Below are positions 16,894 to 28,935 of a DNA stretch of 64,000 bases, one piece after another. The stretch lies in NCBI GenBank assembly GCA_038093515.1, contig JBBPSI010000074.1:1-64000 (forward strand). The letters run 5' to 3'. The first letter of the stretch is position 1; each line of letters begins with the position of its first letter. The DNA comes from Butyriboletus loyo. Lineage: Eukaryota > Basidiomycota > Agaricomycetes > Boletales > Boletaceae. The position numbers were made by a program, and so were the translations under genes. The notes under the pieces were generated by a model. That model was not told the origin of the DNA and searched no databases. It saw only the letters and a list, made by a program, of their open reading frames with translations.

Positions 16894-16984
16894 CTTGCAG
16901 CGTTTGCAAAAGTCCGTGGAAAATGCAAAATCCAGTTTCGCCCAGCGCGAACTGCCGGAGAAGGACCCCAGAAGCAGCCCTAGA
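16894..16984 (+). repeat. Left terminal inverted repeat
   Basis: It matches, as reverse complement, the right arm at about 17381-17471. The shared core includes CAGTTTCGCCCAGCGCGAACT, with differences at only a few positions, implying relatively recent insertion. Confidence 0.8.
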
Positions 16985-17380
16985 CATTTACTAGTAGCAG
17001 TTAGTGTTCGCAGTTGATACGTGACGAATACACCAAAATACTCCTCTCCTTCCATGCTTCGCAGATGTGCCTCAGACAACTTGAAGCCTCGTATCCCAAC
17101 CCTCAATCATGAGGGTTATTCAGTCAAAGATATCTATCACCTATTTGGTATCAAAAATCCCAAGCGATTTGAGTCATCGAGGGCGAAAAGTAGCTCCTTC
17201 ATTTTGGTGGATTTCTCTTCTTTAGATGTTGTTCTTCCCTGGGTCATTTTCTTGACTTTCAAATAGCCAGTGAGTGAGACTGAGAAAGGCTGCAAGATCT
17301 CACTGTCCTCTGGAGCTGGGGACTGCAACATGCTGGCTACACGAGGAAGGAGTAAGGCCAGTACTGACTACCAAATATGT

Positions 17381-17471
17381 CTAGGGCCGCTTCTGGGGTC
17401 CTTCTCTGGCAGTTCGCGCTGGGCGAAACTGGATTTTGCATTTTTCACGGATTTTTGCAAACCGCTGTAAG
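17381..17471 (-). repeat. Right terminal inverted repeat
   Basis: The reverse complement of the left arm at 16894-16984. It ends at CTGTAAG directly before the TA flank at 17472. Confidence 0.8.
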
Positions 17472-17473
17472 TA

Positions 17474-19742
17474 CCTGATGATGAAACGAATAAAAATAAT
17501 TGATTGGATTCAAACTTCAAAGACAATGCATTATCAGCCACAGTTCTGCAAGCTCATCAAGTTTTCCCGTAGCCATAAATCTACTGCTTTCGCAGTTACC
17601 CGACCAGAGATTACATAGTCCTGGACTCCTGCTTGTCGGCAATGATTAATGAAATCCGCTGTGAAGTTGAGACAGTCTTGCTTGTAAACAAATTTTAAAA
17701 TCTGTAAGGCCTCCAGCGTAGTGGGCAAGAGCCTATTGCGTTGATCCGTGCAAGTTCAGTTGCTGGACGAAGAAAATGTGTTCGGAAGGGACTGAGCGAC
17801 CTTGTATTTGTACTAGCCGAGTTACATGGTTAAGCGCTAAGCCTTGGTCATGCTCTCTGAGAGACAATTTGAGGCGGAAGAACATTTCTTCAGTGATTTA
17901 ATATTTATCCTTTGAAGCCAACACTGGACAGCATCAACAAGACTGAGTCTGACAGACAACGGCAAGTGGACAAGTACTTGGGTTGTCTTTGATAACGACT
18001 ACTAATAATCTGTACGAAATTTGTACATTTCGTTGGCACTTCACTGCGAAGTGAACGAGATAACTTCGATTTAATTCGGATGCATCGGGCTTCCCACGAG
18101 ATGGCTCACTTTCGAACTGAATCGATTTTACCTCGAAGTTATTTCGCCTCGACGGCAACACTACAATCAAGGATGAGTGTACGCATGAAAGAGATGGATA
18201 GGATATTTCGTGCGTCCCCTTCGATAGGCGTGCAAAAGTTGGGGGCATTTCCATCTACCGAAGTTGTCCGAAGTGGCCCTCGGAGCATCGTCAGGGCTCG
18301 CTGGCCTTATGAAATGGTTCGCACTTTTGCGTTGGGTTTCCCTCGTCGTTCACTTAAATTGTCGATGGAGAAAGTTGTGTAACACCTCGCGACGGCAACC
18401 TTGCACTCTCAAGGTACTCGCGGAGATGGATTTACCCTCAGGTCTCCAACCTTCTTGATGTCTGTGCCGATTTAGTGACGTATCTTGAGAGTTCTGCGTT
18501 GACTCTTACTTTAGCCACTTGAAAAAGTTTTTGGAGCCCATGACCAGTGCGAGCTCGATTGACCAGTGTGATTATTGCACCAGGCTGATTTGCCGTGTCC
18601 GCGACAAGCGATGCGTCCATCGCCACCTCAGTTGAGATGGAAATTACTAGTACGCGGTCGAGTCGGATCGCTCGCACCAGTATGTACGAGTTATGGGATA
18701 ACAGGGCCGCATCTCCGAAGAAGCATCGCCAGTGAGATCAGAAACACACCGCATTTCGGGTGAAGAACATAGCCCAGCTGCGGTAACGTGGTAGACTCGA
18801 AATTACGATGTCGGTATGCAGAGTGGGGCTGAAGTCCTTGACCGAGTCCCCCATCCGTCGCTGTCACACCTCCCAGTTGTACGCGATATTCAGAGGCGAG
18901 CGGGGAGACTTACAGTGTCTCGGGAGTGCCCCTCAACCGGGCATCCCAAGCTGCCCTCATGGCAAATGCAAAATCATATCAGTTCGCGAGTGGACTTGGC
19001 CGAGGACCTGGTAAACCCGTCGTTACCGGTGCTCAACCGGTACGACCACCCGGAGAACCATCGTAACCGCCTCAGATGCATATGTACGACCCAACAGTCG
19101 ATAAGCTGCGAACGAGAACGTATCCGTGGTTAGTTTCCCAAAAAAGTGAGATCGAGAAGACCGTAAGGAAGTTGTTCCGCGGGCAAATGATGCCCCTAAA
19201 CTGAAGCGATTGAATCAAGTCACAATGCGCAGCTTGAAGATGATCACGTCTCTTAGAGCTGATCTGCATCATGGAAATAATTTCTCAGCCTCCAGTACGT
19301 ACTAAGCTAGCATGGCGTCGGTGTTATTACCGAGTTTGACGGCGGTGCGTAGTATACCGGTGACGTTCAGGTTGGTCCTGTCTCGGTCTCACCTCCACTT
19401 TGACAGAGATTATTGAGACACACTGTTCTTGTCCTAATAATAACTAACGTCGTAAGTATGCAGCTTTTATTTGAAGGACAGTCGTTGTCAAGGTTATTGT
19501 CATCCGATGGAGTGGGAACTTCCCACACCACCGCCATCATCGAACACAGGCTGATGCAGATGCTTGATGGCGGCAGAGTTGTATTGTCATTCTCGAGGCA
19601 GTGCTCAGCTTCTCGCTGGTCTATTCCATTCAAAAAAGAGAACTCTTCCTGGGCCCTCCATTCCCCCCTTCTTGCAGTTGATCTGCAATTTCCTCCCATC
19701 TTTCCTTAATTATCCTACATCTTTCACGACTTCCTGAACATC
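17474..19742. other. Gene-poor region with a dispersed repeat copy
   Basis: No convincing gene is present; the frames are short, on both strands, and match no family I know. It contains one copy of the ~138-bp dispersed repeat (18027-18164, separate entry). The final ~200 bp before 19743 is pyrimidine-rich on the plus strand and is presumably the promoter and 5' leader of the seven-helix membrane protein gene. Confidence 0.4.
18027..18164 (+). repeat. Dispersed ~138-bp repeat, copy A
   Basis: From ATTTCGTTGGCACTTC to CTCGACGGCAACACTAC, this matches the reverse complement of 28463-28598 over its whole length, with scattered substitutions. It contains short palindromic modules such as GAAGT...ACTTC. 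No reading frame spans it. The short length and internal symmetry suggest a MITE-like or foldback element. Confidence 0.7.
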
Positions 19743-21443: not shown

Positions 21444-24400
21444 ATGATGGCCACCTCGCTGATTACTCCCACCGAAGCACTTCTGGAAGCTGCCAAGCAA
21501 CACCCGTTCCTCGTTGCTGTTAGAAGTGGAGAAGATCAATGGTCATATGCGGCCCTGTGGGCGCGCGTCAGACAGCTCGCAGACGAAATTCATAATCTCG
21601 ATGATACCAGGAATCCTATTGGCCTTTATATGGGGTGAGTACATTCGACGGTGTCTTGTTCAGTCGGTCGTATCGTATCTAATTTGGCCGCCTAGTCTTG
21701 AAATTGATTTCGTTGCTGCGGCGCATGCTATCTGGCTTTCAGGACGTACAGTTGTTTTACTATCTTCAAAGTGGACACCAGATGTCGTCCAGATTATTCT
21801 CGGGCGCGCCGATGTGCGTCTTATTCTTTTTGGCTCATCGGAGCCGCCAGCTGCACCGGGAGTCCGTGCCGTCTCTACTTTCAGCCTCGTCGACTCCCCG
21901 AAGCCTCCAAGCCACGTACTTGCTCCGTCGCCCGAAGAGGTGGTTGAAACGGTCCCCCGGATCTGTTCCATCACTCCCACCAGTGGTAGCACTGGTGTCC
22001 CAAAGAGCATTGTATACCCCATGCGCAGAAGCCTTGCTGTCCTCACTGAAGAGTCTTCTGCATACTTCAAACCTGTGGATGGGCAGTGGCTACGGGGCGG
22101 AACTGTCAGCGTTTACTTGACCATATTGACAGTTGACGCTGACTCGACAGCTAAAATAGACGTTCCTGCGCCCTCTTTTCGAGATTCGCCGTTTCATGTT
22201 CAACCGGACGACGTTATACCTTGATGCGTCCTCCTCAGTCGCTGACCAATGCATTGCATTGTATGAAGAACTTGAATCCGCTCGCATCTCTCAGATGATG
22301 CGAGTGCACTTTACACCCAGCGTCTTCCGTGCGTTCGCCGAGTATGCGCAAATGCGTGCTGGTGGATCAAGGCTTCCCCGTGGCTTTAACCGTATCTATT
22401 GGATGGTGATTGGTGGTGAAGCACTTGACGTTCGTGACCTTGATTTGGCTGCTGTCGTATTCCCAAGTGCAACGATCGCTTGTAACTATGTAGTCAGTTT
22501 TTTTTGACATTTTTCGTTCCATACTTATACTAAACACTTGTACAGTGTTCCGAGGTTGGTTTTGCGGGCATTTCGCAAATGTTGGTTTGGCCCACCGATC
22601 CCATCCCGTCCACGGTTTCATTTGGGCCCACACAAGGTTGTACAGATATTGTCCTCCTTGATGAGTCGTTGTCTGTCATTCCCCGGAGCGGAGAAGGTGC
22701 AACTGGGATCGTTGGGTTTATCACGAGTCAGAGCGCAACCCACTACCTTGACAATGAAGAAGCTTCCCAGCATATGTTCCGTCCATGGGCTGGGGATGAC
22801 ATACTCCTTTACACGGATGACATTGGTTGCATGCAAGTTGATGGTACCATTGCGATCCGTGGTCGTAGCTCGCGCAATGTCAAGATTAATGGTTTATTCG
22901 TGGATCTCGACTACGTCGAACGTGCATTGGCGCCTGCCTTTGCTGACAAGTCTCTCAACGTCACAGGATTCAAGCTCGTCAAGTCAACTACAGCCGAGAG
23001 GATCGTGCTGTTCGCGAGCACTCAGACCACCACTGATGCTATGTTCGTCCTGAAGCACGCCCGCGACCACCTGCGCGTTTCTCACAACAATGATCTTGCT
23101 TTGGTCATAAATTCTGTTCGTTGCATTCCGGAGATGCCCTTTAATTCTTCATACAAGATCGATCTTGCCGAGCTTCAGAAGATGGTTGACTCCACGGAAA
23201 CACTTCCTCATGGGCACTTTGCCGACGCTCCGGTGACCGCTCCTCTATCTGGGGTTGATGCGCTCGCCGAAAAGATTGCGGTCAAGGTTACGAAGCTGTC
23301 CCAGTCTCCTGATGCCATTCCGCCAGACCTACCTCTTCTTTACTCCGGCCTCACCTCGATCACTATGGTTCGCCTGTACTTCTGGTTGCAGTCCGAATAT
23401 GAGTACCCGGAGCAGATGGACCATCTCTTCGATGAGGAAGTTACCACTCGAACGATCGCTTTGGAGATTTTTGGCGACGAGGAGGAAGTAACTGAGGAGC
23501 TCGTCATGGGCCCTACCATCCCTAGCCGCCCCAACAGCCAGGCTACCGTGGTTGACAATGAGGACATTGACGACCTCGCCTCTGAGGAAGTTACAGATTT
23601 CCCACTCAAGGTTCCTGTTACGGCTGCTGGGGAAATTGTGGTCAGTGAAAAAACTCCGGATTATCTGTTCGAGAAGGAACATGAACACAATCCCACTCAC
23701 ACGTCCAAGTGCCACCCCGCAAGTATGCTGATCGTCATGCAACCTCCTGTCGAAACCGCCATCCCCGATACTATCAATAATATCGTCACTCACCCAACAC
23801 TACACATTACCCCCTATGCGTTTCTGTTTGTATCATGGATGACGCCGTTGCTCCGCTTGGGATCGAAGCGGCCATTGTTGGAATCGGTAGTTATATTCAC
23901 TTCTGGCTGAGTTGTACATCACATTAAATATATTTCTGGTCTTTTTCCTTGTAGGACCTGCTTCCTCTGAGACGGAACGACGAAGCAATCATGGTGGAGG
24001 GTTGGGTGGAGCCTTTCTGGACTCAATTGCGAGCGTGGTCCCTCGACAGGAACTGTAAGAACCCTGAATTGTTCGGAGCGATCTTTTCCGCCGCCAATAA
24101 ATTATGGCAAGTATTATCCCTGCCTGCGCGTGGGTTAAATCACTTTACTGACGAACATGATAGGATGATTTCCGGAGTTCTATGGTTCTTGTCCATCTGT
24201 TCAGCCATCCTTTCCCCACTAATGCTGCAGCAAATCATTGTCGCAGCGGAAGCTCCCGTCCCACCTATTGGCAACGCCACGGCGCTCGCGGAATGGACCT
24301 CAGTTATCAAATCAGACACCGGTGGTTTCCCACTGATCATCTACAATACTTACGCTTTGGGCGGTATCTTGATGGGACTCAAGTTAGTTTTCACGCTCTG

Positions 24401-27400
24401 TGGACGCTCTTCGGACCAACTTGTAAAGCGCATGGGCTTGGACGTCAAAACAGCTCTCATTTCAGCTGTTTACAAGAAGGCACTCCGTCTTTCTGCGGAG
24501 AGCAACCAAAAATATGGCAGGGGGTATATCATGAACCTTGTCAACGTTGACTGCGAATCTGTCTCTAAGGCATGGGAACTCGTCCACCAAGCCTGGAGCA
24601 TTCCCCTCCAGTTGGTCGCGGTCACGGTCCTTCTATCTCGTCTACTTGGGGTCTCCGCATGGGCCAGCGTTGGCGTCCTCGTATTCTCCCTCTTTCTCCT
24701 CATCATGGTCGTCCCAGTGTTCATGCGCAAAGCCACTCCTGGGTTCATGAAACTTGGTGATCGTCGCCTGAAGACTGTCCGTGAAGTCTTGGACGGTAAA
24801 TCTACTTTGAAACATTTATCACTGTTTTACTAACTATGTGGACATCCAGGTATCCGCGTAGTGAAGATCAATGGCCTTGAGAAGCACTTCTTGGTGAAGC
24901 TGGAAGGGATTCGTACAGAGCAGCTTTACTGGTTGCGTCAATTCAATATGGGGGTTGCAATTTTTGTCATCGTCGGGCAGGCAGGTCTGCGTACTCAGCG
25001 ATATAACTAGGATGTTGAAATTATCTCCTCCAGGTCGCCAACACTGTCATGCCCCTTGCTGCTTTCTCCCTCTTTGGCCACGAGAACATGGGTGAGATCC
25101 CCTCTTCAAGAGTTTTCCCCGCCCTTTCTTTCTTCGGTATGCTGGTGGACCCTCTTATAGCGCTTCCCCAGCTCCTTAGGTATGTCGTCGATTATTTTCA
25201 ACGATCAAAACTCACATTCATATCCACGTAGTGCGGTTGTCATTGCAGTCACATCCTGGGGTCGTATTTATTCCTTTTTGCTTGCTGACGAGAAAGCTTC
25301 GGCGACCGAGTCTTTGCCCTCTGTTATGGTCATCGGTCATGCTATTACCATTGCTGATGGTGCTTTCTCCTGGACCGCTCTCGACAGCAACGATATCCCT
25401 TCACTTGCCCAAGTAACAGATGACAATGCTGAAGTCTCTAGCATCGATAAGGTTGATAAGGATGAAGAACATGAAGTTTCTGCCCCTGGTCCATTCCTGC
25501 ACAATGTAAACATTTCGATTCACACTGGCTCCCTCACCGCTATCGTCGGCAATGTCGGATCTGGAAAAAGTTCTCTCTTGTCCGCTATTATTGGAGAGAT
25601 GGTGCATGTCTCTGGCGAGGTTCACTGCAACGGGTCTGTTGCATACTGTGCCCAACAACCCTGGGTTCAGACCTCCACCATTCAGGACAATATCTTGTTC
25701 GGTCGTCCCCTCGATATACATCAGCTCCAGAAGGCCCTCCAGACTACATGTTTCGATTCGGACCTCGAAACTTTCCCCCACGGCATGGCCACCCAGATGA
25801 GCGAGAAGGGAAGCAACCTTAGCGGTGGACAGAAAGCCCGCCTCGCCCTTTCCCGTGCAGTCTATTCTGACGCCGACATCTACCTTTTCGATGACGTTCT
25901 TGCTGCTTTAGACCCTCGCGTTGGTCGTAATGTCTTCAACAACTGTATCAGACACGGCTTGCAGGGAAAAACGCGCGTCCTCGTTACTCACCAGCTCCAG
26001 TACCTCAACCAGGTCGATCACATCATCGTTGTCTCCAATGGTACCGTTGTCGAGCAAGGCTCTTTCGATGACCTGGTTGCTAGGAATGGCGAGCTTACAC
26101 GTCTGCTCAGCGAAGTTCAAACGTCTTCGGGAGACTCTGATAATAAGAAGGATGAAAAGCGCAAGAGTACTTCTGACCCTCATAAGGCCACAGTTGAGCG
26201 GCAAGAAACCACTAGCCAAGTTATTGCCGAGGAAGAGCGCAACATGGGTGCCGTTGGTACAGCAACATGGTGGGCGTACCTCAAGGCTACTGGCGGTACC
26301 GGGATGATTATCATGCTGCTGCTTGAAACCATATTCCTACAAGGCAGCGTCGTCATTCTGAACCAATGGCTCACTTGGTGGACGGAAGACACTTGGCATG
26401 AGAAAGCTCAAGCTTGGATCGGCATTTACGATGGCATCGGTTTCGCCTCTGCTCTCGCCGTTGGTGAGCTTGCTGCATCTTTCCTCTACGTTTTTTCAAG
26501 GCTTAACATGTATAGTCATCCTCAACATAACTATTCTCCTGAGCAGCATCCGTGCCAGTCGCATGTTCCACTCCAAAGCCCTTCAAGGTGTCCTCCACGC
26601 TCCCCTGTGGTGGTTCGAGAGTCAACCAATTGGCCGCATCATGAACCGGTTTTCCAAGGACATTGAGTCTATTGATCAGCGTCTCATGCCCCAACTCTTT
26701 CAGCTGGTTGCAGGTGTTGGAAACTTGATCTCCACGGTCGTTATCTTGAGCTACAGCACTCCGATCATGATGGGTAAGCATAACATCTACTTGCTCGATC
26801 TCCGCTCATGAGTCGGTTAGCCTTCGTGTTCCCAATGGTCATCATCTATTGGTTTGTGCTCAAATTCTACCGCAAGTCCCTCCGTGAGCTCAAGCGCCTT
26901 GAATCTACTGGACGCGGTCCACTTCAGTCTCGCATCAATGAAACCCTCGATGGAATCCCGACAATCATGGCTTATGGACGCGAGACTGACTTTGAAAATG
27001 CAGTTGGGGGACTACTAGATGCAAGTAACCGCCCTACGTTCTTGAGGATGCATGCCGGTATGTCAGTTCTTTCACCGTTATTCGGGATGGCTGAAAGTCT
27101 GGCCAGAAATCTGGGTCACCCTTCGAATGGAAATCATGTCTTCGTCGATTGTCTTTGCCCTTGCCATGCTTGCACACACCAAGGTGGTCGGAAACGGCAC
27201 CCAATTCGTACTGGCATTGACCTATGCATCGACACTCACCTACATCATGAACCTGCTCCTCAGGAGTGCCGCCAACGTCGAAGCAGAGGTCCGTTTAAGC
27301 ATCTACTCTTTAGACTCTGAACTCAGTCGATCATCTCTAGATGAACGCTGTCGAACGTCTCATGAACTACACCACCTCGCTCCCCAAGGAAGATTCCGCG

Positions 27401-28303
27401 TACCTTGGCTCTGACCCTGCTGAGGGGATTTGGCCCTCGCGCGGCGAGATTGTTCTGCGTGACGTTGATGCTGCATACCACTCTCGCCCTGACAGGCTTG
27501 TCCTGCGCAATGTTAGCCTTACTTTCAATGCAGGAGAGACGGTCTTTATCGTCGGGCGCACTGGTTCTGGAAAGTCGACGCTTCTGTCTTTGTTGCTCCG
27601 CATGATTGAGTCCAGCAACGGCACGGTCGAGATCGATGGCAACGGTGAGGATGATCTACCGATCCGTACCGGCAGTTTCTGGTGTCTGGTCTTATTTTTC
27701 TTCGTTAGACATCAAGTCCCTTGGCGTGTCGACTTTGCGCCGTGGTATGCAGGTGATACCCCAAGGTGAGCAGCGGGTGTTAACTTGACGAGCATCCACG
27801 CTCTGAACCTGGAATCTACAGATCCTTTCATCTTCTCGGGCACGATCCGCTCCTCTCTCGATTTTGATGGCAAGCATGAAGACGATGTGCTCTGGCATGC
27901 GCTCGATCTTGTTGGTCTGAAGGACTTTGTTGCTTCCCAAGATTCCAAGCTCGACACGGTCGTCGAGGACAACGGGTCAAATTACTCTGTCGGCCAGCGC
28001 CAGCTCCTGTGTCTCGCGGCTGCCATCCTACGCAACCCCAGGATCCTACTGTTGGACGAGGCGACTGCATCGATCGACGCTGGTGCTGACGTGTTCATCC
28101 AGCAGGCGATGCGCCGGAGCTGCCCCCGCGCAACCATTCTCAGTGTCATGCACCGACTGAGCGACAGAATCTTGGAAGAGTGTGACAAGGTGTTGGTGAT
28201 GGAACAGGGTGTACCGATTGAGTATGCTTCACCTCGGGAGCTTCTCGCGCGACCCAACTCCATGTTTGCAAAGTTGATGGCTGCTACTAGAAACAGCCAT
28301 TAG
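21444..28303 (+). CDS. Fused NRPS-like adenylation-carrier protein and ABCC-type ABC transporter
   Basis: Fifteen exons (21444-21634, 21696-22104, 22160-22489, 22546-23886, 23955-24106, 24164-24795, 24850-24980, 25034-25179, 25232-26463, 26501-26773, 26821-27057, 27107-27288, 27341-27644, 27709-27765, 27822-28303) join in phase to 2,032 residues. Adenylation domain, residues ~1-520: TPTSGSTGVPK (~157), TDDIGCM, GRSSRNVKINGLFVDL (~416), and a terminal lysine in NSSYKIDL. Carrier domain ~545-620: YSGLTSITMV, with Ser ~581 the likely phosphopantetheine site. An acidic linker runs to ~730. An ABCC core follows: SWMTPLLRLGSKRPL, two helical bundles, NBD1 (GNVGSGKSS ~1217, LSGGQ ~1307, LFDDVLAALD) and NBD2 (GRTGSGKST ~1824, SVGQRQ ~1928, LLLDEATASID). 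Exon 4 alone spans adenylation, carrier, linker and transporter start. By family, the front activates a carboxylic acid and loads it on the carrier; the rear exports. Substrate and coupling are unknown. Confidence 0.88.
23887..23954 (+). other. Intron just after the fusion junction
   Basis: A GT-AG intron of 68 nt splits the transporter entry motif after KRPLLES and before DLLPL. It is phase 0. Because it lies downstream of the junction, the carrier-to-transporter linker is read from uninterrupted genomic sequence. Confidence 0.75.
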
Positions 28304-28935
28304 TTACAGTTGTCGCGATGGTTATAATTTAAGCTCGCCTTCGTGCATATCATCCGGTTCCGAACTTTGTCTATCTACTTATGTTACTGGGGGGGCTACA
28401 TAGTCCAATCTACTCTCAAGCTCGAGTGAAGTGGGGTTTTCTTACAAGAACGTTGTCGAGTCTAGTGTTGCTGTCGAGACGAAGTAACTTCGAGGTAATT
28501 TCGATTCGGTTCGAAAGTGAGCCACTTCGTGAGCGTTTCGATACATCCGAATTGAGTTGAAGTCACCTCGTTCACTTCGCGAAGTGCCAACGAAGTGTAC
28601 TGCCATCATCATGGTCTTCACTATCTGGCTAATTGCAGAAGCAGTGGATGAGCTCGCGGAAAACTTGGCGAGCTTTCGGAACTGTTTTTAAACGAGGCTG
28701 ATGATGAGTAGTCTTTTCTAAGACGTGTTTTCATCCTTTTTGTGCCGGTGGGTCAGACATATTACAGTACATGTAGACGTGAATTCTGATTGGCTGGTAT
28801 TTTCGGCCCGCGTAGCCGCTCACTTCGTCCCCCCAAAATACACTGCGATTCGATTCGGTTCGCAGCAACACTAGTCGAGTCACTCCCGTTTGGTTTACCC
28901 GGTAATTCACGCGGGTACTTTTCCCGGTAACCACA
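28304..28935. other. Intergenic region with dispersed repeat copy B
   Basis: It holds the 3' end of the fusion gene, the inverted copy of the dispersed repeat at 28463-28598, and the promoter of the ETF-beta gene. No gene is visible. Confidence 0.45.
28463..28598 (-). repeat. Dispersed ~138-bp repeat, copy B (inverted)
   Basis: The reverse complement matches 18027-18164 from end to end. It includes CACTTCGCGAAGTG-type palindromes and the shared core GTGAGCCACTTCG. A shorter related stretch (GATTCGATTCGGTTCGCAGC and the bases after it) lies at about 28846-28885. Confidence 0.7.

Follow-up and report, generated by a model that had tools for sequence, protein, structure and literature searches.

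An adenylation-carrier enzyme joined in frame to an ABCC exporter in Butyriboletus loyo, with a candidate second end of the gene

Does a gene that appears to run from a biosynthetic enzyme straight into a membrane exporter encode one joined protein, two separate ones, or both? The question is raised by positions 21444 to 28303 of a 64,000-nucleotide (nt) stretch of the bolete Butyriboletus loyo (assembly GCA_038093515.1, contig JBBPSI010000074.1, positions 1 to 64,000), the whole of which was analysed and is called the window here. The gene lies on the + strand, comprises 15 exons and 14 introns over a span of 6,860 nt, and predicts a protein of 2,028 residues in the order adenylation domain, one carrier (Ser582), linker, and complete ABCC exporter. 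Taken as a whole, the best explanation, which we hold to be somewhat better than an even bet, is one gene with probably two products: an exporter tethered to an enzyme, and the same enzyme in free form. The gene model was built by splice sites and corrected by homologs, and its parts are as follows.

21444..21634, +: exon 1, start codon and adenylation N-terminus; the TPTEALL start is conserved in relatives
21696..22104, +: exon 2, adenylation core with TSGSTGVPK (residue 159); 3' boundary placed from GGT-TFLRP of relatives
22160..22492, +: exon 3, adenylation core, from TFLRPLFEIRRF to NYV
22546..23886, +: exon 4, a single open exon holding the last part of the adenylation core, the lid, the carrier, the linker and the ABCC entry
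23254..23472, +: carrier (T) domain, residues ~548-620, Ser582 at 23356-23358; PF00550 in relatives
23488..23796, +: acidic, proline-rich linker, residues 626-728
23887..23954, +: intron 4, donor GTAGTT with T at +5
23887..23910, +: candidate alternative C-terminus on retention of intron 4, VVIFTSG and a TGA stop at 23908-23910
23955..24106, +: exon 5, ABCC part upstream of the first membrane helix; GC-AG intron next
24164..24795, +: exon 6, first transmembrane domain
24850..24980, +: exon 7, first transmembrane domain; GC-AG intron next, GQ-V junction as in P0001
25034..25179, +: exon 8, first transmembrane domain
25232..26463, +: exon 9, first nucleotide-binding domain (Walker A, LSGGQ, LFDD) and start of the second transmembrane domain
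26516..26773, +: exon 10, second transmembrane domain
26821..27057, +: exon 11, second transmembrane domain
27107..27288, +: exon 12, second transmembrane domain
27341..27644, +: exon 13, second nucleotide-binding domain (Walker A)
27709..27765, +: exon 14, second nucleotide-binding domain
27822..28303, +: exon 15, second nucleotide-binding domain (SVGQ, LLLDE) and stop

The uninterrupted 1,341-nt exon at 22546-23886 described in a first-pass annotation of this DNA was found to be open and in frame, with the adenylation lid, GLTSI, the acidic linker, and the ABCC entry all present. The 15 exons join in phase, as had been claimed, with no stop across the whole joined model. The earlier length of 2,032 residues becomes 2,028 once the ends of exons 2 and 3 are placed by homologs and two GC-AG introns are recognized, intron 5 (starting at 24107) and intron 7 (starting at 24981), whose junctions NKLW-MISG and VGQ-VANT agree with P0001 and others (P numbers denote proteins from our searches). 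The carrier serine predicted near residue 581 is found, at the level of sequence, as Ser582 in GLTSI.

The fusion and its relatives

Two protein searches, each scoring ~8,000 candidates, were used to look for the same domain order elsewhere; we considered the best 120 of 172 matches for the full-length query and the best 120 of 1,293 for residues 720-1500, so that the distribution described here is a lower bound. Six proteins (P0001-P0006) matched both sides of the join. P0001 is 82% identical across window residues 2-2028 and is an uninterrupted open reading frame (ORF) of 2,004 residues, while P0002 is 70% identical with an uninterrupted ORF of 2,021 residues; identity of this extent over the full length rules out a chance ORF or a sequencing error masking a stop. 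P0003 is a fusion from Astraeus odoratus and P0004 one from Chiua virens whose model has no N-terminal part, and P0005 and P0006 are fusions from the chytrid Irineochytrium annulatum, the former 47% identical in its adenylation-carrier (A-T) part. Motifs A3, A8, and A10 and the carrier serine are intact in the window protein and in five of the six others, and the similarity of P0001 is even along its length (82% in the A-T part, 81% over residues 720-1500).

The sources of these entries appear not to make splice-aware protein calls, because other entries from the same sources read in frame through introns (P0259 from jgi; P0251 from lgn/ena; P0249 and P0253-P0256 from ena). P0001 and P0002 are read as spliced complementary DNA (cDNA) since they are intronless ORFs in such sources, and since the contig of P0001 (6,368 nt) is shorter than the window gene. 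The longest contig of P0002 (8,188 nt) could fit a genomic copy, which leaves the absence of introns as the sole cDNA argument for that protein. We infer that in these relatives a single transcript very probably encodes the whole fusion. The first-pass proposal of a single in-frame adenylation-carrier-ABCC protein thus holds up, with an order conserved in Boletales and one chytrid.

The search with residues 720-1500 also returned 12 close ABCC models from Boletales. Across the aligned part, identity is 71-86% for those from Gyrodon, Boletus, Paxillus, Pisolithus, Phlebopus, Hygrophoropsis, Coniophora, and one of the Melanogaster copies, and 68% for the other Melanogaster copy. In a quick tree of 47 ABCC sequences, with SH-aLRT support alone, one group with support of 100 contained the fused Boletales proteins, the carrier-exporter proteins P0134-P0137 described below, Obba, Irineochytrium, and four other chytrid sequences. 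The window sequence grouped with Boletus, Chiua, and P0001, and Coniophora, Boletus edulis, and Pisolithus sequences also grouped with it; where the chytrid branches fall within this group is tentative. Two further chytrid proteins, P0133 (Dinochytrium, 2,602 residues) and P0138 (Phlyctochytrium, 2,869 residues), have two tandem matches to the ABCC part and no AMP-binding domain listed, and may be real or merged models.

The first-pass annotation knew of no described protein of this order, while allowing for examples in databases. The architecture is in fact in print, which rules it out as new: Kovalchuk et al. 2015 (PMC4692070) report, as a feature of Boletales, an ABC-C transporter with an N-terminal AMP-binding domain, hypothesize a coupling of synthesis and transport, and cite a first report by the same authors in Mycologia 2013. 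The AMP-binding sequence is stated there to be present in all species having the gene, which is associated with nonribosomal peptide synthetase (NRPS) clusters in Coniophora and Serpula and not in mycorrhizal species. The window gene shares with this group its architecture, order of fungi, and coupling hypothesis; its AMP-binding domain is N-terminal to an ABC-C part, its placement in Boletales comes from the ABCC tree alone, and it is most likely an ortholog. The fungi named there are Boletales and Ceriporiopsis, and neither our literature search nor the passages of PMC4692070 considered mentioned the carrier, carrier-only fusions, a chytrid fusion, a paralog with two carriers, or a second end. 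What is added here to the known fusion is the carrier, the carrier-only relatives, the chytrid fusion, that paralog, and a likely second end.

Intron 4 and a candidate second end

Translation continued into a retained intron 4 (23887-23954) would add VVIFTSG before meeting a stop. Among the retrieved proteins, 19 contain the end of exon 4 and run into intron 4 in this way, while P0001-P0004 run into exon 5 instead. The tail has the form V-V/L-I/M-F plus three similar residues in all 19, and it is exactly seven residues long in 18, with P0305 running 21 further; the set includes the window's own sequence (P0290), and the stops of the others were inferred from protein ends. The second tail codon is Val or Leu in every case, which implies T at donor position +5 throughout. 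By eye, 12 of the 14 introns in the window gene have G at this position.

Identity over tail residues 3-7 was 0.65, 0.66, and 0.82 at mean exon identities of 0.57, 0.64, and 0.74 (160 of 171 pairs), with exon identity taken from the last 330 residues. Intron 2, for which seven related ORFs offer a read-through control, gave 0.10 at an exon identity of 0.68 (6 pairs) and 0.20 at 0.87 (13 pairs), based on the first 500 residues. By these protein comparisons, the intron 4 tail is as conserved as exon, and well above a control intron of similar divergence. The tail was not selected by retrieval, because the profile used for searching stops near residue 632, upstream of it.

Sequences that end in this tail include P0240 (733 residues, on a contig of 2,422 nt), which is without introns 1-3, and two models from public sets, P0242 of Boletus coccyginus and P0243 of Pisolithus marmoratus. 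A quick tree of A-T parts placed P0240 and P0242 with the window and P0001, and P0243 with P0002 and Astraeus; in this tree the fused sequences may or may not form a single clade apart from those with two carriers. Together, the sequences suggest that the gene probably gives two products, a free A-T enzyme and the exporter-tethered form. The first-pass annotation would have given up the fusion for a transcript whose end lay within 23500-23750, with a separate promoter and start for the transporter. A conserved candidate end does lie just beyond that interval, at the stop 23908-23910, and the free enzyme is probably made as well as the fusion.

Domains, substrate, and multi-carrier relatives

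A Pfam scan of an earlier, 2,029-residue version of the model placed AMP-binding (PF00501) at residues 15-363 (9.3e-21), along with two stretches each of ABC_membrane (PF00664) and ABC_tran (PF00005). The adenylation motifs are TSGSTGVPK at 159, NYVCSE at 309 (A5), YTDDIG at 400, GRSSRNVKING at 417 (lid), and SYKID at 513 (A10-type, with Lys515). An AMP-binding profile and motifs A3, A5, A7, A8, and A10, in the usual naming, are thus present as in NRPS-type adenylation domains. The transporter has Walker A motifs at 1218 and 1820, LSGGQ at 1308, LFDD at 1330, SVGQ at 1924, and LLLDE at 1944, so that its sites are uneven (LSGGQ/LFDD in the first nucleotide-binding domain versus SVGQ/LLLDE in the second). 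By its domains and sites it is a full-size ABCC-type transporter without TMD0, for which a role in export is predicted.

The carrier motif GLTSI begins at residue 579. Scanned for carrier motifs, 83 sequences (the window protein, the genome paralog described below, P0001-P0006, P0134-P0137, and P0235-P0305) gave 163 carriers, 162 of them with the serine, the single proline being in the Chiua virens fusion P0004; among rows up to P0269, no motif was found in P0269 and a single one in P0258. A two-carrier paralog from the same Chiua virens, P0239, retains both serines, unlike the fusion. The genome has two matches to the ACPS family, which is of the phosphopantetheinyl-transferase type.

In NRPS-type adenylation domains, the Asp of FDxS anchors the alpha-amino group. 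Aligned with 25 NRPS-type rows chosen for containing FD, this column is Leu203 of FLRP in all six family rows, and because the anchor position is Leu203, a non-amino acid is the likelier substrate; this suggests that the activated acid is not an ordinary amino acid. In a Foldseek search with the predicted structure of P0240, the 50 rows listed had TM (query) of 0.20-0.27; they were mostly NRPS-type adenylation domains and their kin, and gave no substrate information.

Two other kinds of relative separate the parts that the window gene joins. In the search with residues 720-1500, P0134-P0137 are 48% identical and have the lid, carrier, and ABCC part without the adenylation core: A3, A8, and A10 are unmatched, while the carrier serine and a complete ABCC are present in all four. 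They share one start position on contigs of 5.1-5.6 kb. It is as if the link of carrier to exporter were the part being preserved in these sequences. The search with the A-T part found 83 proteins, of which 71 are family members (P0235-P0305, many partial) and 12 distant NRPS-like proteins. The family comprises enzymes with two carriers (A-T-T; P0235-P0239, P0241), with three (A-T-T-T; P0244-P0248, Gelatoporia; adenylation parts ~53-57% identical to the window), together with A-T ends belonging to the fusion gene. The stand-alone enzymes have a related adenylation part, two or three carriers, and no transporter.

One A-T-T paralog (C130) is in the Butyriboletus loyo genome itself, at L037:4701-7434. 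It is intact, with 858 residues, 73% identity, and the same introns 1-3, and it was not among the 35 ABCC matches in a search of the genome; the transporter is absent there. Its C-terminus still carries the ABCC entry PFSFMFSSWIT and ends two residues past SSWIT, and six A-T-T sequences stop 6-7 residues past the same boundary motif.

As for the setting of the gene, 20 window ORFs were scanned, with shorter exons left out, and 10 had a Pfam match: ribosomal S19e, DAHP synthase (an enzyme of the shikimate route), ETF, MFS, PMC2NT, exonuclease (two ORFs), kinase, M16 peptidase, and EXS. As far as scanned, the window is consistent with a gene outside an NRPS cluster, as PMC4692070 describes for mycorrhizal species. 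A 2,301-base copy of window 28673-26373 (the 3' part of the gene and flank) was found at C200:1-2301 with 100% identity and zero mismatches. It passes at window 26373 into a retroelement-like ORF, and could reflect an insertion in a second haplotype, very recent copying, or an assembly error. The gene is flanked by inverted copies (82%) of a dispersed repeat at 28458-28580 and 18046-18168; the stretch 28420-28700 has at least 47 genome matches, itself included, and by eye resembles a miniature inverted-repeat transposable element. An 86-nt inverted repeat (16902-16987 and 17377-17462) is 95% complementary, with its arms 389 nt apart.

Weighing the explanations

We propose the following working. 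With intron 4 removed, the product would be an ABCC exporter, lacking TMD0, with a cytosolic adenylation-carrier N-terminus. The adenylation part would activate a carboxylic acid with ATP and load it onto the carrier arm at Ser582. This arm would adjoin the exporter's inward-facing cavity, allowing the acid or a derivative to be exported while being made. With intron 4 kept, as its weak donor may allow, the stop after seven residues would release the same enzyme untethered. It is a tentative suggestion, at slightly under even chances, that this weakly defined intron acts as a switch for the site of the enzyme, tethered when it is removed and free, with its own seven-residue end, when it is kept, and that other lineages split the roles into a carrier-exporter and multi-carrier enzymes loading it in trans. 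Known systems resemble parts of the scheme. Peptidase-containing ABC transporters (PCATs) are ABC exporters with a cytosolic N-terminal enzyme acting on the cargo, a likeness in working only; they carry a C39 peptidase, act on peptides, and have no adenylation or carrier domain. Fungal A-T-R and A-T-TE adenylate-forming enzymes, like the window protein, have adenylation and carrier domains without a condensation domain, and end in a reductase or thioesterase after the carrier, not an exporter.

Several observations weigh against this account. The transcript evidence comes from relatives and not from this organism, with the cDNA status of P0001 and P0002 read from length and absent introns, not from a record label. 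The 19 tail sequences are not independent, being from related species with the window's own included and with inferred stops, and the intron 2 control reaches 0.60 at an exon identity of 0.91 (2 pairs, with P0254 and P0256 the same over that stretch). The tail might owe its conservation to a role as a splicing signal, or mark a splicing intermediate, and the branch-point-like GGCTGA is another possible cause of a fixed stop; the relatives' intron 4 is known as protein only, from which coding selection and a splicing signal are indistinguishable. P0240 could be an unfinished transcript, and its structure prediction (26 rows) is poor, with a mean pLDDT of 58.7. The window's own carrier scores 14.0 bits against PF00550, under the cut-off of 20.8 that the genome paralog, P0235, and P0248 exceed, and the Chiua virens fusion has GLTPI, with the serine lost, in a model without A3. 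The protein has no releasing domain after the carrier, which leaves the release of the thioester unexplained; no condensation, polyketide, terpene, or other typical secondary-metabolism enzyme was among the 20 scanned window ORFs; and a separate enzyme loading the P0134-P0137 carriers in the same cell is hypothetical.

An unlikely alternative, though the strongest of those considered, is that the enzyme part is a regulator, with carrier loading or acid binding opening or closing an exporter of another substrate. The missing releasing domain would fit, and the carrier-exporters P0134-P0137 indicate that an exporter can bear a carrier without in-line synthesis. Gating by loading and hand-over of the acyl group, both raised in the first-pass annotation, are conjectural. 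There is, however, no positive evidence for regulation, and the separate fungal A-T-T and A-T-T-T enzymes could load such carriers in trans, with which delivery fits equally.

An improbable second one is that of two genes, an A-T enzyme ending at the intron 4 stop and an ABCC transporter starting separately, with the fusion an occasional splice product. In nine of the 12 Boletales ABCC models (e.g. P0123, P0126, P0132) the first residue is the methionine that corresponds to window Met899, the models P0242 and P0243 terminate in the tail, and T stands at +5 of the donor in all 19 sequences. Starting at Met899, however, would remove the first predicted membrane helix (808-826) and the ABCC entry, while the fusion ORFs P0001 and P0002, the carrier-ABCC ORFs P0134-P0137, and the chytrid fusions favor a real joining, as does the AMP-binding sequence recorded in every species with the gene in the 2015 survey. 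Least probable of all is a disused A-T part beside an exporter that alone matters, which the damaged Chiua virens fusion might suggest, and against which stand the intact motifs in the window and five of P0001-P0006 and the even similarity of P0001.

For the proposed gene with a tethered and probably a free product, the alternative end and the two GC-AG introns may explain why public gene models split the gene in two. A link between making and export has been hypothesized in print for the Boletales gene (PMC4692070). If the account given here is true, the attachment of a carrier arm to an exporter would tie the making of a metabolite directly and physically to its export in mushrooms.

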